Source: Flavobacteriales bacterium
GTDB taxonomy: Bacteria; Bacteroidota; Bacteroidia; CAIKAF01
Assembly (NCBI GenBank): GCA_025451235.1
Contig: JANWKT010000019.1
Span: 1-64,000 of the forward strand
Direction: 5' to 3'
Length of the DNA stretch: 64,000 bases
The notes under the pieces are model-generated. The model made no database searches, was not told the origin of the DNA, and saw only the letters and a program-made list of their open reading frames with translations. How positions within the stretch are numbered: the stretch's first letter is position 1; the number at the start of each line of letters is the position of its first letter. The position numbers and the translations under genes are program-made. Shown in pieces: positions 640-11,753 of this stretch.

Positions 640-2919
640 TTAAAACTTATAAGCCGCCGTCAACTTCAAAAAGAAAGGAGTACCGGGCGTAAAATGGATC
701 TCAGATACCGATGAACTTTCATTTGCCAATCTAGATTCCGTATTAAACTGTGCTTCATTCCAGGCGGAATTCAATAAGTTTTGCGCCTGTAACCCAATTT
801 CGTATCGAGGCCGGGTAAAATTGATTACGGCATCCATTAATGCATACCCTTGGGCAGTTACCGAATTGTCTTCATTGGCAGGCCGATCGCTTAAATACCT
901 GAAGCGGACAGAAGCCGATAAATAATCTTTGTACATAAAAGTCAATCCTCCAATGGCAGTAATAGGCGGAGCAAGGGGAATATGATCAGCACCGCTTGGC
1001 TCATCTCTTAACCGGGCATAGGTATAATTAAAGTCTCCATCCAGGTATAACCATTTGAGAATTTCATACCGAACAGAAAAATCAACTCCCATCCTTCTGG
1101 AACGACCAGCCTGTTCAATCACGGCCTCATCCCCTACATAAACAAATTCCTGTTGCAGGTCCATTAACCAAACCGAAGCAGTGATCAATAATTTTTTATA
1201 GGGTTTTACCACTGTTCCCAGATCGTACGATGTAGCCATGGGTAAAATGTCAGCCCCATTGCGTGAAACAATTACACGGGTATCGTTGGTATGGAATCCC
1301 ATTCCGAAGTTAAAAAACACACGAGCCTTGTCCGAAAAATTATAATAAATACCAGCCTTTGGGCTAAATGCATATTTGCTGATAGATTTGCGATTGTATA
1401 CGGTGTCTAACTTGTTTTCATAATCATGAATAAAATAATCGAATCTTAAACCTCCTATTAATACCAGTTGCGGAGTAATGAACAAGGTTTGGTTGGCATA
1501 ACCGTATACATTGGTTTCATTGATATTTCCTAACGATAATTGTTGAGTGGTCATCAACCGGTTTTTGGTACGGCTTAATTCATTGTCCATGCTGTTATCG
1601 TATCTGAAACCTGCACCCAATTCTGTTTTGGTATTCATTTTTCCCAGTTGATAGTTCAACGTGTAGGAAGCATTGTATCCACCCAATACCCTTTTTTCTT
1701 TCTGGCGGATCTGGTCTCCATTGATGGAGTCATTCAGGAAAAAGGTAAAATTAGAATAGAGTTCAAAATCATAATAGGTGAGAAAGGCATTCGTCTTAAA
1801 AATATTCTTTTTGTTATCGGAGGCTTGAGTGAACTGGAAATTAAGGTTATACCTGCTGGTATTTCCACCCTCGGTGCTATCAACCGCTCCAAAACGGTTG
1901 ATGATACCTGCATCCACCAACCTAGTGGGAATTTGTCCCGATGCATCCCAATTGCTTCTGAAAGCAGATACGGTGATACTGAACATACTGTTTGACGATA
2001 TGAAGCTAGTGTATTTACCAAAAATATTGAACCGGTTAAAATTTTGAGGAGCATTAAAATAACCACGGTTATAATTATATTCTCCAGCAATATATGCGCT
2101 ATGTTTTCCTCCCTGGCTAGCATTTTTCCCGAGTAAATTAAAGGCCGCTACGGTTCTGAAATTTCCATATAAACCACCTTCCATTTTAATTAAACTCTTG
2201 TCCAGGAATTTTTTGGTGTTGAATTCTACCCATCCAGCAGTGGCCAGGTTACCATGCTCTACATTGTAAGGACCTTTACCAAAATTCACCTTGTCAACCA
2301 ACTCCGGAATAAGAAAATGCAGATCGGCATAACCTTGTCCATGGGCATGCGATACCATATTCACCGGCATTCCATCCACTTTAATGCTAATATCGGTTCC
2401 ATGGTCAATATCGAAACCTCTCATAAATATTTGCTCCGCTTTTCCTCCACCTGCATGTTGCGCAATAAATAAACCAGGAACCAACTTCAACATATCCTGG
2501 GCCGAATTGGTCGGGCGTAAGTTAAGATCAATACCACTTACTGTACTATAGGTCAATTCTTTTTGAGGAATGATGACTACATCTTTTAAATTAATAGGGA
2601 CTTGTTTCAGGTTCTTTTTTAATTCAACCGTTTGATTTTCTACGATGACTACTTTTTCAACGATGGTTTCATATCCTATATAGCTGATAGATACTTCATA
2701 GGTGCCGGCGGTAAGTTCAGGAAAGAAAAAAGTTCCGAACACATCTGTCACCGCTCCTTTGTTTAATCCTTTAATAAAAACATTGGCTCCTTCCAGGGGT
2801 TTTTGGTTGGTCTCGTCATAGATCCCCCCTTTTAAACTTCCTGAATGTGCTGCTGCATGATTATAAAATACAATCAACAACAACAAGAGGGCAGATATGA
2901 TTTGTAAATGTTTTTTCAT
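640..2919 (-). CDS. TonB-dependent outer membrane receptor
   Basis: A 759-residue TonB-dependent receptor that should import a ligand across the outer membrane using TonB-ExbBD energy. A signal peptide (residues 1-24) is followed by a carboxypeptidase-regulatory-like beta-sandwich (about 28-110, with the typical GANVFIKG and GTYEVSISYIGYE strands), a plug domain (about 120-235, including QIFMRGFDIDHGTDI and NVEHGNLA) and a long barrel that ends in a C-terminal Phe (AAYKF), as barrel proteins do. There is no SusD partner next to it, so it is not a SusCD-type glycan importer. It lies downstream of a TPR lipoprotein and two DUF4331 genes on the same strand; the 304-bp gap before it holds hairpin repeats, so cotranscription is uncertain. 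The substrate is not evident; small molecules, metals or peptides are all possible. Confidence 0.93.
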   Translation of the reverse strand: MKKHLQIISALLLLLIVFYNHAAAHSGSLKGGIYDETNQKPLEGANVFIKGLNKGAVTDVFGTFFFPELTAGTYEVSISYIGYETIVEKVVIVENQTVELKKNLKQVPINLKDVVIIPQKELTYSTVSGIDLNLRPTNSAQDMLKLVPGLFIAQHAGGGKAEQIFMRGFDIDHGTDISIKVDGMPVNMVSHAHGQGYADLHFLIPELVDKVNFGKGPYNVEHGNLATAGWVEFNTKKFLDKSLIKMEGGLYGNFRTVAAFNLLGKNASQGGKHSAYIAGEYNYNRGYFNAPQNFNRFNIFGKYTSFISSNSMFSITVSAFRSNWDASGQIPTRLVDAGIINRFGAVDSTEGGNTSRYNLNFQFTQASDNKKNIFKTNAFLTYYDFELYSNFTFFLNDSINGDQIRQKEKRVLGGYNASYTLNYQLGKMNTKTELGAGFRYDNSMDNELSRTKNRLMTTQQLSLGNINETNVYGYANQTLFITPQLVLIGGLRFDYFIHDYENKLDTVYNRKSISKYAFSPKAGIYYNFSDKARVFFNFGMGFHTNDTRVIVSRNGADILPMATSYDLGTVVKPYKKLLITASVWLMDLQQEFVYVGDEAVIEQAGRSRRMGVDFSVRYEILKWLYLDGDFNYTYARLRDEPSGADHIPLAPPITAIGGLTFMYKDYLSASVRFRYLSDRPANEDNSVTAQGYALMDAVINFTRPRYEIGLQAQNLLNSAWNEAQFNTESRLANESSSVSEIHFTPGTPFFLKLTAAYKF

Positions 2920-2990
2920 GCAATGGTCTTTTTATTTGCCCTGACGCTCTGGTCAGGAATTTCATGGCGGACATTTCCCGCTTTCCCCTG

Positions 2991-3118
2991 TATCTTTTGG
3001 GTGTTTTTTGTCATGTCGACCGTAGTGGGGACATCTCAAATAATTAGGAGAGATTTCTCCGCTTCGCTTCGGTCGAAATGACAAATCATTTTTTGTCCTT
3101 CAAAACACCAAAAGGATA
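2991..3118. repeat. Long imperfect inverted repeat
   Basis: The left half (TATCTTTTGGGTGTTTTTTG then TCATGTCGACCG) pairs with the right half (CGGTCGAAATGACA then AAAACACCAAAAGGATA), and an inner GGGGACATCTC pairs with GAGATTTCTCC. The whole could fold as one interrupted hairpin of about 128 nt. It occupies most of the 304-bp gap between the receptor gene and the TPR gene; I see no gene in this gap. It resembles dispersed palindromic intergenic elements rather than a simple terminator, because no T-run follows. Confidence 0.65.
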
Positions 3119-3126
3119 TCGCTTCC

Positions 3127-3146
3127 CCTGCCTGCCGGCAGGCAGG
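3127..3146. repeat. Perfect 20-bp GC-rich palindrome
   Basis: CCTGCCTGCCGGCAGGCAGG is a perfect palindrome placed directly after the longer inverted repeat. Related CCTGCC/GGCAGG arms occur near 17420-17442 and 42012-42040, so this is probably a dispersed repeat type of this genome. Confidence 0.7.
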
Positions 3147-3223
3147 TATCCCTGCCACATTTTCGTCACCAAGAAAGAGTAAACTGGTGATCGGGCTCCC
3201 CTGATCACCAGTATCAACTACTA

Positions 3224-4586: not shown

Positions 4587-4635
4587 AAAAAGAACCCCGC
4601 TCCCGGATCAAGTCCGGGATCTGCGGGATTCTTTT
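4587..4635 (-). terminator. Nested hairpin, terminator-like on the minus strand
   Basis: On the minus strand an outer stem (AAAAGAATCCCGC with GCGGGGTTCTTTT) encloses an inner stem (TCCCGGA with TCCGGGA), followed by TTCTTTTT. This fits a rho-independent terminator for the DUF4331 genes. It lies between the candidate promoter at 4650-4676 and the TPR gene, so it could also attenuate transcription into that gene. Confidence 0.6.
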
Positions 4636-4649
4636 GATTATAACATTAG

Positions 4650-4676
4650 ATACGAGATTTATGGTTACTCGGATTT
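4650..4676 (-). promoter_or_regulatory. Candidate ECF-type promoter, copy 2
   Basis: Reading the minus strand, AAATCC is followed after 12 bases by ATCTCGTAT. The same two blocks with identical spacing, plus AG and CAT between them, occur at 8530-8556 upstream of the first DUF4331 gene. The layout (two short blocks, a CGTAT-like downstream block) suits an ECF sigma factor, and one is encoded at 8676. The upstream block overlaps the last codons of the DUF4331 gene ending at 4665. Inference only. Confidence 0.45.
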
Positions 4677-6695
4677 AATCATCTTAATGGTTTGTACAGG
4701 TTTACCGTTCACAATCAACCTAGCCTGGTAAACACCTGAAGCCAAGCTACCTGTATTCCAGTTTACGGTATATTCTCCGGCATCTCTAATACCTTCGTTC
4801 ATCACCGACATGGTCTTTCCATTCATATCATAGATCTGAATAGCCACCTTGCTGGTATTGGTGAGTTTATAACGGAAACTGGCGTTGCTCATAAATGGAT
4901 TTGGGAATCCAATCATCACTGCTTCCGGAGCATTCATGCCCAGGTCTTCCAAACCAGCTGGTGGTCCGGAATATTGAGCACCGTTGAATCCTCTCCATGG
5001 ATTTTGAAGATATGGGAAGCAAGTTTTGAAGGTAGTGTCGTTAGCAGTCACCCCAGCATTGAATGTAAGAACATCCAATAGATCTGTAGTAACTGGGCTA
5101 CCCATTCCAACCGTATAATCATCATACCATAATCCGATGGCTGCTAGTACAACTCCACCCACAGCTTGCAACTCAATGGTAGTTACATCATCTTCCAATC
5201 TGCGACCGTTAGGGAATCCATCCATATTCGGGATCCAAACCAATGCAGTGCCTGAAGCAGTATACGTAGGATCAGTTAAACCTAATACTGCTGCCTGAAC
5301 CAGTCCTAAAGAACTGAATTGAGGATGCGTACGTGGGGTAACAGGTACCGCCATATTCAAGCGCAACATATCACCAAACGTAGGAAGGAAATTGTTGATG
5401 AATGGTTTTCCAACTGCTAATGGGTTACCAACCGGTTTACCGGTAGCCAGTTGATAAGGAGCCAAATTAGGAACTCCAGTATGGAAGATAGGTAATAAAT
5501 CCACTGAACGTGGAGCACCTGGACGTAGTAAATACAATCCAAATAAATTGGTATCTAAAGCAGTTCCTGCTCCACCATTCGTTGCAACAAGCGGATATAA
5601 ACCTGCTTGTGTATTACCGAAATCAAAAGCTTGTAAGGAGTTTCTTTGAATACGCAATGCAGCTAATCCTGGAACAGCACCTCCAAACAAAGAATTATCC
5701 ATGTATAGTCCCAATTCAGGATTACAGAAATAAGCTTCCATTGCTGGATCTTCGGTGTAAGGAGTTAATGAATTCCATTCGTCTTTATCACCAATCGGAA
5801 TCACCACTTCATTGGTCAATGGCATACCCAAACGAGAAACCTGAACCCATGGTCCGGAAGGAGTTGGAGGCAAACCACCTGTATTAAGTGTTGAAATTTG
5901 CTGACGGCTGGCGGATGCCCAAACACCGATCACAAAATTTCCGTCCAGAATATTGGTTGCAGAACCAACGGATAATCCGCTTACCTGTAAAGTAGAAATA
6001 GGAATTTCAAGCGCAATTGAATGGCAATTGAATTTAGCCAATCCATCTTTACCTGGAGTTCTGAATCCACCCACATCAAATGCACCACCAAGATCCACAA
6101 AGAAAGGATCATCTGCAGGTCCGCAGAAAACGGTTTCTCCACCACCACCTGTTGCGGTTGCAATAGATGCAGTTATCAATGAATTGTAGTTGGCAGCTCC
6201 TAAACCAACGGTAGCATTCTCAATGGAACGAGGACCGATATTCGGCGGAGCCACGGTACCTGATGCCACAATGGTAGAAAATGCACCACCATTGATACTC
6301 TTTTCACAGATATAGGTAGTTTTTATATTTTCCTGACCTAACCTGATATTAAAGAAAGTGGTGGGATCCTGATTTACATGGGTGAAAGTAAAACGATAGG
6401 TAATATCGTCCCCTGTTGTACCATCATTCTCTATATGTATTTCATATCGAATGTTCTCACCAAACGTAATATAGTTTGGGCCTCCAGCTGGATGCTCAAA
6501 AGGAATATAGTTGGCGATCAAAACGATTTTGTTAGTATCACAAGGACTTCTGAAAGCATATAAGTCTGTGTTATCCGCTAAAGGATCAGTTGAGATAAGA
6601 GGGGCTTCTCTATGTGAGGAAGCGATCACATGGTTCAATGGCATCAAGATCATTAAAAATGCCACTACTATATATTGGATATTTTTCATATTCAT
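4665..6695 (-). CDS. DUF4331 protein with T9SS type A sorting tail
   Basis: A 676-residue exported protein. The signal peptide covers residues 1-25, then the DUF4331 hallmark SSHREAPLISTDPLADNTDL begins the domain, which continues to about residue 580 (PFFVDLGGAFDV, GVWASASRQQ, GFPNGRRLEDDVTTIELQA). The last 75 residues form a type IX secretion sorting domain (APEAVMIGFPNPF, then VAIQIYDMNGK and ASGVYQARLIVNG), which should send the protein through the T9SS to the cell surface. The function of DUF4331 is not known. It has a close tandem paralogue 15 bp upstream (6711-8471) that lacks the sorting tail. The two genes are most likely cotranscribed from the promoter region before 8471. A second Met two codons on is an equally good start. 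Confidence 0.92.
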   Translation of the reverse strand: MNMKNIQYIVVAFLMILMPLNHVIASSHREAPLISTDPLADNTDLYAFRSPCDTNKIVLIANYIPFEHPAGGPNYITFGENIRYEIHIENDGTTGDDITYRFTFTHVNQDPTTFFNIRLGQENIKTTYICEKSINGGAFSTIVASGTVAPPNIGPRSIENATVGLGAANYNSLITASIATATGGGGETVFCGPADDPFFVDLGGAFDVGGFRTPGKDGLAKFNCHSIALEIPISTLQVSGLSVGSATNILDGNFVIGVWASASRQQISTLNTGGLPPTPSGPWVQVSRLGMPLTNEVVIPIGDKDEWNSLTPYTEDPAMEAYFCNPELGLYMDNSLFGGAVPGLAALRIQRNSLQAFDFGNTQAGLYPLVATNGGAGTALDTNLFGLYLLRPGAPRSVDLLPIFHTGVPNLAPYQLATGKPVGNPLAVGKPFINNFLPTFGDMLRLNMAVPVTPRTHPQFSSLGLVQAAVLGLTDPTYTASGTALVWIPNMDGFPNGRRLEDDVTTIELQAVGGVVLAAIGLWYDDYTVGMGSPVTTDLLDVLTFNAGVTANDTTFKTCFPYLQNPWRGFNGAQYSGPPAGLEDLGMNAPEAVMIGFPNPFMSNASFRYKLTNTSKVAIQIYDMNGKTMSVMNEGIRDAGEYTVNWNTGSLASGVYQARLIVNGKPVQTIKMIKSE

Positions 6696-6710
6696 TTTTT
6701 TTAGTGGTTT

Positions 6711-8471
6711 TTAGAATCTGGCCTGGTCAGTATGATCATAACCTCTCCATGGGTTTTGTACATATGGGAAGCTGGATTTGAAAGTTGTATCGTTTGAAGT
6801 TACCCCTGCGTTGAAGTTAAGAACGCCCAACAATGTTGGTGTAACGGGGTTCGGCCCACCGGCAGGATAATCATCATACCAAAGTCCGATAGCAGCTAAT
6901 ACAACTCCGCTAACAGCTTGTAGTTCGATCGTGGTTACATCATCTTCCAATCTGCGGCCATTGGGGAAACCGTCCATATTCGGGATCCACTGTAAACCGG
7001 CACTTCCGTTATAGGTTGGATCGGTCAATCCTAGCACTGCACATTGTATCAATCCGAGTGAACTAAATTGAGGATGGTTACGCGGAGTAACAGGGGTTGC
7101 CATGTTCAAACGTAACATATCACCTAATGAAGGAAGGAAGTTATTGATAAATGGTTTTCCATTTGCCAATGGGTTACCTGCTTTACCGGTAGCTAAATGA
7201 TAAGGAGCCAGATTAGGTACACCTGTATAGAAAATAGGTAGAATATCTACCGATCTTGGACTGGTAGCATTCGGCAATAAAATGGTACCGAAAATTGCAT
7301 CATCCAAAGCGGTTCCAGATACAGCGGCAGATCCTTTTAATGGCCATAGTCCATCTTGTGTATTTCCAAAATCAAATGTCTGTAAAGAGTTTCTTTGAAC
7401 ACGCAAAGCGGCTAATGAAGGAACAGCACCACCAAATTGTGAGTTATCCATATACAATGCCAATTCTGGATTACAGAAATAAGCAGCCATAGCTGGATCT
7501 TCGGTATAAGGTGTTAATTGGTTCCATTTGTCTTTTTGACCAATTGGAATAACCGCCTCATTGGTTAATGGCATACCAATTCTGGATACTTGAACAAAAG
7601 AACCGGAATAAGAAGCACCACCACCTGCATTCAATGTTCTGATCTGCTGTCTGCTGGCAGAAGCCCAAACACCGATTACAAAATTACCATCAAGAATACT
7701 GGTAGCTGCAGAAACAGGCTGACCGGTTTTCTGTAAGGTAGCGATGGGGATTTTCATGCAAATAGAATGCACATTGAAACGGGCCAACCCATCTTTTGGA
7801 GGATTCACCACATTTCCGTTGGGCCTGAAATTACCCACATCAAATGCTCCGGCAAGATCCACAAAAAATGGATCATCTGCTGGTCCGCAATAAATTTGTT
7901 CGCTACCTCCACCGGTTGCATTCTCAATAGAGCTTGTAACCAATGCATTGTAAGTAGTTCCCAAACCTACGGTTCCATTTTCAATGGACCTCGGACCAAT
8001 GTTGGGCGGAGGTACATCCCCTGAAGCCACGATGGTAGTAAATGCTCCTCCATCGATGCTTTTTTCCACTATATAAGTGGTTCTTAAATTTTGCTGGCCC
8101 AACCGAATGTTGAAAAAAGTGGTCGGGTCTTCATTCACCTGTGTGAAAGTAAAACGATAGGTAATATCGTCTCCTACTACAGATGCGTCATTGTCTACAT
8201 GTATTTCATACCGGATACTTGTCCCAAAAGTACTGTAATTGGGGCCTCCTTCCGGCAGTTGAAATGGAATGTAGTTGGCGATAATGGTCACAAAATTTGT
8301 ATCATCAGGGCACCTGAATGCATACAGATCTGTGTTATCGGCCAAAGGGTCATTTGAGATCAGGGGTGCTTCACGGTGACTGGAAGCAAAACCCGTGACC
8401 GAAATTGTGGAGAGACTCAAAACGGCACAAAAGCCTCTGAACATCTCCTTCAATGTAGGATTTCTTCTCAT
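6711..8471 (-). CDS. DUF4331 protein without sorting tail
   Basis: A 586-residue tandem paralogue of the next gene, similar through the whole DUF4331 region (SSHREAPLISNDPLADNTDL at residues 30-49; GVWASASRQQIRTLNAGG; GFPNGRRLEDDVTTIELQA). A signal peptide is present (residues 1-29). It stops shortly after the shared NPWRGY motif with a short tail (DHTDQARF), where its paralogue continues into a T9SS sorting domain, so it should remain in the periplasm or be exported another way. It is the first gene of the minus-strand run and diverges from the ECF sigma gene, with 204 bp between them. Tandem duplication followed by gain or loss of the C-terminal domain is the simplest history. Confidence 0.92.
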   Translation of the reverse strand: MRRNPTLKEMFRGFCAVLSLSTISVTGFASSHREAPLISNDPLADNTDLYAFRCPDDTNFVTIIANYIPFQLPEGGPNYSTFGTSIRYEIHVDNDASVVGDDITYRFTFTQVNEDPTTFFNIRLGQQNLRTTYIVEKSIDGGAFTTIVASGDVPPPNIGPRSIENGTVGLGTTYNALVTSSIENATGGGSEQIYCGPADDPFFVDLAGAFDVGNFRPNGNVVNPPKDGLARFNVHSICMKIPIATLQKTGQPVSAATSILDGNFVIGVWASASRQQIRTLNAGGGASYSGSFVQVSRIGMPLTNEAVIPIGQKDKWNQLTPYTEDPAMAAYFCNPELALYMDNSQFGGAVPSLAALRVQRNSLQTFDFGNTQDGLWPLKGSAAVSGTALDDAIFGTILLPNATSPRSVDILPIFYTGVPNLAPYHLATGKAGNPLANGKPFINNFLPSLGDMLRLNMATPVTPRNHPQFSSLGLIQCAVLGLTDPTYNGSAGLQWIPNMDGFPNGRRLEDDVTTIELQAVSGVVLAAIGLWYDDYPAGGPNPVTPTLLGVLNFNAGVTSNDTTFKSSFPYVQNPWRGYDHTDQARF

Positions 8472-8509
8472 TTGAAATGGATTAAATTAATAAATTTAGA
8501 AATGATGTA

Positions 8510-8528
8510 TAAGAACGATATCGTCTTA
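8510..8528. promoter_or_regulatory. Near-palindrome in divergent promoter region
   Basis: TAAGAACGATATCGTCTTA is a palindrome with a single-base bulge (TAAGAACGAT against ATCGTCTTA). It lies between the divergent DUF4331 and sigma-factor genes, immediately downstream of the candidate promoter at 8530-8556, where a repressor site would be expected. No regulator can be assigned. Confidence 0.35.
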
Positions 8529-8529
8529 C

Positions 8530-8556
8530 ATACGAGATACATGAAAGCTTGGATTT
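8530..8556 (-). promoter_or_regulatory. Candidate ECF-type promoter, copy 1
   Basis: On the minus strand AAATCC, 12 bases, then ATCTCGTAT, the same blocks and spacing as the site at 4650-4676. It lies about 60 bp upstream of the start codon of the first DUF4331 gene and so would drive both DUF4331 genes. The adjacent divergent gene encodes an ECF sigma factor. Only two sites were found by eye. Confidence 0.5.
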
Positions 8557-8675: not shown

Positions 8676-9221
8676 TTGCCAAATCAAATTACATATACCG
8701 AAGAAGAATTGATCCTCCTGATCCGGGAGGGCAATCAAAAAGCCTTTTCATATTTGTACGATAAATATGCAATGGCACTTTGCGGAATTATTAATACCTA
8801 TACCGGATCCCAGGAAGATACCGAAGATATTCTGCAAGCCACCTTTATTAAGATATGGAATAATTTTTCGAAGTATGATGAACAAAAAGGCAGGTTGTTT
8901 ACCTGGATGCTCAACATTGCCAGGAATACTTCTATCGATTACATCAGGTCGGCTGATTATAAAAATAAAATTAAGAACCGTACGCTTGAAAAAGCCGTAT
9001 ATGAAACAAATAGTGATCTTCATTTTACCGAAAGTCATGATCATATTGGATTGAACACGATCATGAAAAAGTTATCTGAGGAGCACCAGCAAATTATTGA
9101 TCTGGGGTATTTTAAAGGACATACCCATAAGGAAATTGCAGAAATGCTTGATATGCCGTTGGGAACCGTTAAAACAAAAATCCGGCAGGCAATGATAGCA
9201 TTACGAGAATTAATTAAATAA
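8676..9221 (+). CDS. ECF-family RNA polymerase sigma factor
   Basis: A 181-residue sigma factor with only regions 2 and 4, as in extracytoplasmic-function sigmas. Region 2 covers about residues 12-95 (YDKYAMALCGII, DTEDILQATFIKIWNNFSKY, LFTWMLNIARNTSIDYIRS); region 4 covers about 130-180 (SEEHQQIIDLGYFKGHTHKE, then the helix-turn-helix EMLDMPLGTVKTKIRQAM). The start is a TTG at 8676, since no in-frame ATG precedes the conserved region. It is followed after three bases by an RskA-like anti-sigma gene, so the two form an operon in which the anti-sigma should hold the factor inactive at the membrane. It diverges from the DUF4331 genes, the likely target genes. Confidence 0.93.
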   Translation: MPNQITYTEEELILLIREGNQKAFSYLYDKYAMALCGIINTYTGSQEDTEDILQATFIKIWNNFSKYDEQKGRLFTWMLNIARNTSIDYIRSADYKNKIKNRTLEKAVYETNSDLHFTESHDHIGLNTIMKKLSEEHQQIIDLGYFKGHTHKEIAEMLDMPLGTVKTKIRQAMIALRELIK

Positions 9222-10040: not shown

Positions 10041-11753
10041 TTATTCAACCACGATTACTTTGTAGAAATAGGATCTCTCCATATAGGTGAGTTCTACATA
10101 ATATATACCAGGAGCCAATATATCTCCAATATTAGCTTGAGGTGCTTCCTGCTCCATTTTTAAACCCAAAATAAATCTGCCATCCATGGTATAAGCTTTG
10201 TAGGAATATATACCGGGTCCATGATCAGGAAAATGCACAATGCTGTTGGTTGGATTAGGGTATACGTTGGTTTCATTGTAAGTTTCTTCTTCCATACCCA
10301 GCACATAGGTGGTAACGCATACATAACCGTTCGATAAAAAATTACAACCGAATACATCATATAAATTATCCCCTAATCTTTTATTCCATACCACATGCAC
10401 GAGATCCGATACTCCTGTGGTGATCTGAAAATCCAGGTGTGGATTGAATCCATCATAGTTATTGATCAAACCAATATTGGTGCCCGTAATGGCCGTTGTA
10501 ACGTTCACGGTTCCATCTGGATTTAGCCGAACAAATTGCAATAGATTATTTGAAATGCCCTGCTTCCATACCATGTACATTCCATCGTGTGAATCATCAA
10601 TTACCTTGGGATAATAGTCGTACTGAGTGGTGGTAACAAAATCCGAACCCCAAATAGGAACTCCGTTCATATTACATTTGTTGGCATGTAAATAGTCATA
10701 GGCCCCAATGTTGATCCGAAATGCATAAAAGATCTCATTCGTATTTTTATTCATAAAACAATCAAAATAAGTCATGTCATCTCCGGTATTCGTATAAACG
10801 GTTACCCCATTCGCTGTAAGCAAATTGGTGCCGGTTGTATCCATTCTCTGCATATACAATTCACCCGCCCCTCTGAATTCAACCCATAAAATAATGAACT
10901 CATTTGAGCTGTTCGTGAAAAGTTGGGGGACCCTTCCCCCGTTTTGGTAAATATTGGTTCCTGGAGAAATAAGTTTGGGGACATTGATGGTAAAACCTGA
11001 TTTAAAATTCCCGGTTGCCGGGTCCAAGTTTTGAAGGTATAACGAAACCGAAATAGACCCCTGTGAGTATTCCACATATAAATTATTTTTATTCTCACTT
11101 AAGATCAATTGCACATATGATTCATTGATTCCAGGTTGATTCGCCAATGCCACCGGTGTGGATGGCCAGCCGGAATGGATATTTCCGGAGGAATCTATAT
11201 GCTCTACAAATAGATCATTATCCGAAGGCAACAAGCTTAAGCTGGTTTGGATCCATGCAACAAAGGCGCCCCCATTTCCATTGGAGATCACAGTTGGGTT
11301 CATATGGTGTACGGTAGTATCCTGGGAAACCCGGATAGGATTTCCTCCATTCCACAATGCATTTCCGGACTGATCAAATTTCTGAATAAAAATATGTCTT
11401 CTATCAGATCCAGTGTTCACCGTTTCATAGCCATACCAAACCACAATAGGTAAATTATCTTCGGAGGTAACGATCTCTGTTTTCCAATAATCTCCTACCG
11501 TATCAGAGATCAGCATTCCACCTACCGGCCAGCCTGGTAGTTGATTTCCAAAATGGTCGCGGGCATCGAGCATTACTTTTCCCGTCGTGTCTAGCGCAAT
11601 CCAGGTAGTATAAAGTTCTCCATTGGTACCCGAAGAACATTTCATTAAATGGTGATGTTGATCGGAAGTGCTGAATTGGGTTCCTCCCACCGACCATTGT
11701 GCATAGATAGAAAGAGAAGAAAATAGGATCGTTGAAAAAAATAATTTCTTCAT
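10041..11753 (-). CDS. Exported T9SS sorting-domain protein
   Basis: A 570-residue protein with a signal peptide (residues 1-18, ending SIYAQ) and a C-terminal type IX sorting domain (about 495-570: NETNVYPNPTNSIVHF, YKAYTMDGRF, LAPGIYYVELTYM). The body repeats short beta-rich segments containing WP-G and D-F-G-N patterns (ALDTTGKVMLDARDHFGNQL, FIQKFDQSGNALWNGGN, FVEHIDSSGNIHSGWPS), suggesting a beta-propeller-like fold. It should be delivered to the cell surface or released. No catalytic motif was seen. It stands alone: a 47-nt hairpin (11813-11859) lies upstream and the convergent anti-sigma gene downstream. Confidence 0.88.
   Translation of the reverse strand: MKKLFFSTILFSSLSIYAQWSVGGTQFSTSDQHHHLMKCSSGTNGELYTTWIALDTTGKVMLDARDHFGNQLPGWPVGGMLISDTVGDYWKTEIVTSEDNLPIVVWYGYETVNTGSDRRHIFIQKFDQSGNALWNGGNPIRVSQDTTVHHMNPTVISNGNGGAFVAWIQTSLSLLPSDNDLFVEHIDSSGNIHSGWPSTPVALANQPGINESYVQLILSENKNNLYVEYSQGSISVSLYLQNLDPATGNFKSGFTINVPKLISPGTNIYQNGGRVPQLFTNSSNEFIILWVEFRGAGELYMQRMDTTGTNLLTANGVTVYTNTGDDMTYFDCFMNKNTNEIFYAFRINIGAYDYLHANKCNMNGVPIWGSDFVTTTQYDYYPKVIDDSHDGMYMVWKQGISNNLLQFVRLNPDGTVNVTTAITGTNIGLINNYDGFNPHLDFQITTGVSDLVHVVWNKRLGDNLYDVFGCNFLSNGYVCVTTYVLGMEEETYNETNVYPNPTNSIVHFPDHGPGIYSYKAYTMDGRFILGLKMEQEAPQANIGDILAPGIYYVELTYMERSYFYKVIVVE

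Follow-up and report, generated by a model that had tools for sequence, protein, structure and literature searches.

A candidate ECF promoter motif before DUF4331 operons of Bacteroidota and within RskA-linked sigma factor genes

Background

Which sigma factor transcribes the genes for proteins with DUF4331, a domain of unknown function, in the Flavobacteriales bacterium of assembly GCA_025451235.1? The window examined here, namely the 64,000 nucleotides (nt) from position 1 of contig JANWKT010000019.1, poses this question in a concrete form. On its minus strand, the two-block sequence AAATCC-N12-ATCTCGTAT occurs once before two DUF4331 genes (site 1) and once before a gene for a TPR lipoprotein (site 2), while the genes for an extracytoplasmic function (ECF) sigma factor and an anti-sigma factor lie divergently next to them. 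An earlier note, made from these letters alone, read the shared motif as a likely ECF promoter.

From sequence comparison, we conclude that the two blocks are probably the elements of ECF promoters read by the adjacent sigma factor, and that the same promoter, located inside the sigma gene, would drive the anti-sigma gene. The copy inside the sigma gene, which the earlier note missed, is the most surprising one.

Results and discussion

Motif copies in the window and upstream of DUF4331 genes in relatives

Both sites match the 27-mer without any mismatch, and their spacers are identical at 5 of 12 positions; thus, the exact spacing and the agreement between the blocks, on which the earlier note had relied, are borne out. 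A profile trained without the window (described below) also assigns these sites the two highest scores in the window (Table 1), the next match scoring 8.5. Site 1 ends 58 nt ahead of the ATG that opens the first DUF4331 gene, and site 2 ends 97 nt ahead of the TPR lipoprotein ATG. The second DUF4331 gene extends into site 2, its final codons and stop codon overlapping the -35 block. When the scan suggested in the earlier note is run over the whole genome (4.28 Mb), these are the two exact copies found, rather than many unrelated ones, together with one match carrying one mismatch and 15 carrying two.

Since the motif was chosen post hoc from two sites, their likeness might be due to chance, and the looser classes of matches do stay near the chance level: the four other window matches to the 27-mer pattern have three mismatches each (6 found at this looseness versus 3.15 expected), and matches with at most two mismatches are not in excess genome-wide (18 versus 14 for the reversed pattern). 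We give hardly any credence to this explanation, in view of the footprint in relatives and its controls: for site 1 it is already refuted, and comparison with shuffled and reversed sequences and with the opposite strand leads us to reject chance resemblance, as follows.

With the first DUF4331 protein as query, 77 loci were found in other genomes, all of them Bacteroidota by record title except L060 (uncultured bacterium), L065 (Kapaibacterium) and L105 (Deltaproteobacteria). The gene order DUF4331-DUF4331-TPR-TonB receptor is widely kept among them. For 76 dereplicated regions upstream of the first DUF4331 gene (window excluded, three near-duplicate regions dropped), at least 11 of 15 motif letters are matched in 30 regions, whereas 100 dinucleotide shuffles give a mean of 3.9 (maximum 10) and the opposite strand gives 1 of 76. 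When a two-block profile is seeded with the motif of the earlier note and trained on the DNA upstream of DUF4331 without the window, it takes the form AAATCC[AG]A-N14/15-CGTA-n-[GA]T, i.e. with 16 or 17 nt between AAATCC and CGTA, and its posterior exceeds 0.5 in 58 of the 76 relatives. In the window plus the 77 loci (1.14 Mb), it finds 82 matches with a score of at least 12 versus 1 in the reversed sequence, 44 of the 82 being upstream of DUF4331 genes and hence largely training sites; in a larger, partly overlapping set of 1.50 Mb, which includes some overlapping or duplicate loci, the counts are 166 and 1. Copies close to the TPR gene are also present in some relatives. With two short blocks 16-17 nt apart, CGT at -10 and conservation upstream of target genes, the element has the make-up of an ECF-type promoter.

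The motif inside ECF sigma factor genes

Twelve of the 82 strong matches are sense-strand matches within sigma genes, located where the linker between region 2 and region 4 is encoded. RskA_C genes, which are present in 123 of 395 genomes of the class, provide a larger sample: the places used, which are not all of those available, comprise 30 from a search (the window's own and 29 others) and a further 80. Seven of 133 anti-sigma genes had no adjacent sigma gene and were excluded, and the resulting 126 adjacent sigma-anti-sigma pairs were reduced to 114, window included, by removing 12 near-duplicates.

The profile trained on DUF4331 upstream DNA reaches a score of at least 10 in 72 of these 114 sigma genes and at least 12 in 50, whereas synonymous shuffling within each gene (50 rounds) gives means of 3.1 (maximum 8) and 1.2 (maximum 4), respectively. 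At score 10, the antisense strand yields 0 of 114 and the reversed sequence 1 of 114. Whatever its strength, the best match is located 235-310 nt upstream of the sigma stop codon in 97 of the 114 genes, and the motif is kept across sigma factors whose median pairwise identity is 41%. At the family level, a sigma-type promoter sequence is thus found within the sigma gene on the sense strand, which is one of the features expected of an intragenic anti-sigma promoter.

It could be argued that the linker peptide, K-N/I/T-Q-x5-V, is kept for protein reasons and that its coding sequence resembles a promoter fortuitously. The peptide is in fact partly conserved (V in 100 of 114 and Q in 62 of 114 at one column). 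However, the synonymous choices are constrained too, as the shuffling indicates. The linker valine, identified from the protein alignment alone, is encoded by GTA in 93 of 100 cases, versus 12-47% at 21 other columns containing at least 15 valines, and GTA is retained in 34 of 38 sequences after reduction to less than 50% identity. The preceding codon has C as its third base in 100 of 114 genes, across 12 kinds of residue; the column seven before the valine, mostly N, I or T, has C there in 88%, and the codon following the valine has T in 89%. Chemically unlike residues share nucleotides. Moreover, in 12 of 97 genes the spacer is 17 nt long and the -35 letters are consequently in another frame (one case is doubtful, having stops in frame).

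Other ECF genes lack both the peptide and the motif. Of 42 such genes, taken from 15 further genomes besides that of the window, none reaches a score of 8, the best being 5.9. These controls are what is left of 47 ECF genes after setting aside the window's own and four located near a weak match to the anti-sigma profile; the four also score low (one 2.8, the others below 0.95). When all 46 are included, the linker valine occurs in 4, and the linker peptide differs. Note that 14 of the 15 further genomes are in the RskA list, G127 being absent from it. We regard a purely protein-level explanation as very unlikely, and the constraint on the linker codons is read as selection on DNA.

Another possibility is that the intragenic promoter yields a short RNA or a truncated region-4 protein instead of the anti-sigma mRNA. 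In keeping with this proposal, a long stretch separates the motif from the first ATG in the anti-sigma frame (median 278 nt over 95 measured cases). Against it, the anti-sigma gene is the next gene in 114 of 114 pairs, though by construction of the set, and PrshA of Corynebacterium glutamicum is described, in the excerpt of the source used here (PMC3489674), as transcribing the anti-sigma gene alone. We consider this alternative unlikely.

The motif is rare upstream of the sigma gene itself (7 of 113 at a score of at least 10), and an upstream copy is commoner in sigma genes without an internal one (score below 4): 4 of 13, versus 3 of 101 (p 0.003). As the genes lacking an internal copy hold four of the seven upstream copies, the site appears to have two alternative positions, one within the sigma gene and, for a few lineages, one upstream of it.

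Two kinds of sigma gene among the relatives are worth recording. In L045, L054, L063 and L070 (about 5640-6250, plus strand), short diverged ECF-like proteins of 160-161 amino acids (aa) are encoded near DUF4331 operons, with the intragenic motif at the linker; that these are split sigma genes was rejected, each being one open frame of that length. In L083 (794-1912, minus strand), two ECF sigma genes are adjacent, and the shorter, diverged one carries an intragenic motif scoring 13.3 while the other has no clear copy.

Association of the motif with RskA-linked sigma factors

The strict pattern AAATCCRA-N14/15-CGTANRT gives 135 sites in the 123 genomes with RskA, versus 48 for the reversed-pattern control, and 85 versus 65 in the 272 genomes without RskA; at least one strict site is found in 73 of 123 and 68 of 272 genomes, respectively. 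The motif excess thus follows the anti-sigma gene across the 395 genomes. Since about one third of the strict sites in RskA genomes are expected by chance, however, single distant sites are not to be trusted.

The upstream motif might still be a promoter for another ECF sigma factor of the genome, with the neighbouring sigma being a bystander. The window's genome offers candidates for this role, as it holds 20 Sigma70_r4_2 matches, and in relatives the fetched flank of many DUF4331 loci contains no sigma gene. But the excess tracks the RskA gene, and the motif is found inside or before RskA-linked sigma genes and in 0 of the 42 other ECF genes, so that we think this quite unlikely. An ECF sigma gene, often together with an anti-sigma gene, is present within the fetched flank of some but not most relatives' loci. 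From the co-occurrence of motif and RskA gene across genomes, the neighbouring sigma appears to be the one that reads the motif, and the reading of the earlier note as a likely ECF promoter is supported by the geometry AAATCC-16/17-CGTA, the conservation in relatives, the enrichment in RskA genomes and the copies in RskA-linked sigma genes.

Putative regulon

Outside the paired sigma genes, 143 matches with a score of at least 11.5 are found in the fetched loci, and 104 of them are followed within 180 nt by the start of an open reading frame (ORF) of at least 60 aa. These ORFs form clusters of DUF4331 (50), fasciclin (8), a small conserved protein without Pfam family (7), TPR (7), TonB receptor (4), MsrB (3), MsrA (2), ferritin-like (2) and anti-sigma-like (2) proteins, besides one nameless pair and 17 singles, which include a CHRD protein. 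For naming by Pfam, one representative each of the fasciclin, MsrB, MsrA, ferritin-like, small, CHRD and cupin anti-sigma proteins was used. These counts are not frequencies, because the loci were picked around DUF4331, RskA and strict pattern matches. The composition suggests an envelope and oxidative-stress theme.

In the window's genome, a third perfect site is located at G000:C34:136749-136775 (L114 about 2749-2775, minus strand), about 31 nt before the likely ATG of a gene for a Trp-rich protein of 137 aa without Pfam family. This site lies within a TTG-start ORF but was retained, since an internal ATG, after which a signal peptide is encoded, is the most likely start of the gene; the protein would then be secreted. 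In L133, from another genome, a protein 55% identical to it is likewise preceded by the site. A relaxed pattern matched the genome at five places and its control at two; three of the five were taken as chance, lying inside longer ORFs.

In L078 (801 onwards, plus strand), the gene that follows the motif encodes an anti-sigma-like, Cupin_2-containing protein, which we take to be ChrR-like; the same promoter may thus be used by another type of anti-sigma factor. The small family without Pfam match, recognizable by the shared words AHTF and ENGKYH, repeatedly carries its own motif copy (L032, L037, L043, L048, L063, L070, where it is downstream of TPR, and L259). The distribution of DUF4331 itself is patchy: of 100 genomes, 6 have it, the window's own among them, and 0 of 15 others from the same genus or family do.

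Genes of the window

The gene context described in the earlier note is confirmed by Pfam (Table 1). In the sigma protein, Sigma70_r2 (residues 27-94) and Sigma70_r4 (130-178) are above the cut-off, they are separated by just 35 residues, and no region 3 family is reported, which identifies it as an ECF (group IV) sigma factor. The anti-sigma gene is of the RskA type by its RskA_C domain and is the sole RskA_C match of the genome; judging from the adjacency, its product probably binds and inhibits the neighbouring sigma. Between the TPR and TonB-receptor genes (2920-3220), there are short GC-rich palindromic stretches resembling repeat elements.

Table 1. Positions of the motif copies, genes and hairpin discussed in the text
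Feature	Position	Strand	Remarks
Promoter-like site 1	8530..8556	-	-35 AAATCC, 16-nt spacer, -10 CGTAT; profile score 17.4
Promoter-like site 2	4650..4676	-	Overlaps end of second DUF4331 gene; profile score 14.0
Weak intragenic copy in sigma linker	8972..9002	+	AGAACC-N16-CGTATAT; score 7.3; position matches the strong copy of relatives
ECF sigma factor gene, 181 aa	8676..9221	+	TTG start; Sigma70_r2, Sigma70_r4, Sigma70_r4_2
RskA-type anti-sigma gene, 268 aa	9225..10031	+	RskA_C domain
DUF4331 protein gene a, 586 aa	6711..8471	-	Pfam
DUF4331 protein gene b, 676 aa	4665..6695	-	Pfam; C-terminal sorting domain (Por secretion tail)
TPR lipoprotein gene, 442 aa	3224..4552	-	Pfam TPR; lipoprotein judged from N-terminus
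TonB-dependent receptor gene, 759 aa	640..2919	-	Pfam; next gene in conserved order
Terminator-like hairpin with U run	4590..4635	-	Between site 2 and TPR start codon; -31.4 kcal/mol

Proposed circuit

The conserved -35 block AAATCC and -10 block CGTAT would be recognized by the adjacent ECF sigma factor. In the resting cell, the anti-sigma factor, if it acts as others of its family, would hold the sigma. An envelope signal would then free it; the occurrence of the site at methionine sulfoxide reductase genes of relatives hints that this signal may be oxidative. The free sigma is predicted to transcribe operons for secreted and envelope proteins, namely the two DUF4331 genes, the TPR gene with that of the TonB receptor and the gene of the Trp-rich secreted protein. 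It would also transcribe the anti-sigma gene from the promoter in its own linker codons, an element that is clear in the family and weak in the window. The result would be a negative-feedback loop in which the inhibitor goes up without the sigma.

In more general terms, we consider it probable that the RskA-linked sigma gene is dual-coding across Bacteroidota, its linker specifying both a peptide and a promoter for the sigma factor itself to read. The usual positive autoregulation would thereby have given way to a dedicated negative loop; in a few lineages, the promoter would instead stand before the sigma gene. The system would govern an envelope-stress regulon of DUF4331, fasciclin and methionine sulfoxide reductase genes.

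Several results weigh against this account. The motif is missing upstream of DUF4331 in 18 of the 76 relatives, and many DUF4331 loci have no sigma/anti-sigma pair within the fetched flank. Twelve unseeded motif searches (random seeds, 25 rounds each, on the 76 upstream regions) never converged on the motif; the best scored 720 versus 900 for the seeded run, and one ended with AAATCCAAA as its second block. The intragenic copy of the window has a score within the range of unrelated window matches and is identified by its homologous position. Among the 13 sigma genes that lack an internal copy, 9 are without an upstream one as well. Finally, the order of elements before the TPR gene is site 2, hairpin, gene in the window, but hairpin, motif, gene in five relatives (L076, L079, L089, L095 and L101).

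The hairpin of the window has a folding z of -5.59, and 0 of 200 shuffles are as good. The gap between the DUF4331 and TPR genes was folded in six relatives, with the order of the elements judged by eye; in the sixth, L036, motif and hairpin overlap. The hairpin in between makes it less likely that site 2 serves as promoter of the TPR gene, and in the window this site may feed a mostly terminated leader or a short RNA: a start near 4643 would give one of roughly 60 nt ending at the hairpin. A scan for repeats of the hairpin gave no support to a high-copy element: with up to three mismatches allowed, one further copy (two mismatches) is found. Hairpin and promoter letters run into each other in L036 (about 11780) and in L035 (before the TPR ORF at 10759), where the 3' arm and T run continue directly into CGTATGT.

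Significance

DUF4331 is named by none of the 5.39 million open-licence papers searched. The domain now gains a promoter sequence, a candidate sigma factor and its first regulatory context. In addition, a promoter conserved within protein-coding sequence across diverse sigma factors makes it possible to test how the choice between positive and negative autoregulation is made in ECF circuits, and what constraint regulatory DNA places on the evolution of proteins.

Comparison with known systems

In the open-licence literature on DUF4331, internal anti-sigma promoters and Bacteroidetes ECF promoters, we found no description of a system combining DUF4331, an ECF sigma factor and an intragenic anti-sigma promoter. 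Partial parallels exist, and the three papers cited below are used in excerpt.

The target family of SigK in Mycobacterium tuberculosis, mpt83/mpt70, is fasciclin-like, and fasciclin genes carry the motif in the relatives studied here. The SigK-RskA system is also similar in that an ECF sigma gene lies beside that of an RskA_C anti-sigma factor (PMC7509140). In the excerpt, sigK is said to be autoregulated via Rv0449cp, apparently not from inside sigK, unlike in the present family (PMC7509140).

Within Bacteroidota, the SM6 ECF promoters of Flavobacterium psychrophilum, derived from mapped 5' ends, have a conserved CGT box in the -10 region, and an ECF/anti-sigma pair is among the targets (PMC9723704). 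The likeness to the present motif covers this -10 box; the targets named in the excerpt differ, being type IX secretion and flotillin-like genes (PMC9723704).

The closest precedent for the proposed anti-sigma loop is the SigH-RshA system of C. glutamicum, in which PrshA, a SigH-controlled promoter within the sigH coding region, transcribes rshA only, while sigma and anti-sigma genes are also cotranscribed from promoters independent of SigH (PMC3489674). That system, as the excerpt presents it, involves another sigma, another anti-sigma factor (RshA), other promoter letters and one species (PMC3489674). Unlike PrshA as described there, the present element shows conservation at the DNA level across 114 diverse pairs, with a fixed place in the interdomain linker of the sigma factor.

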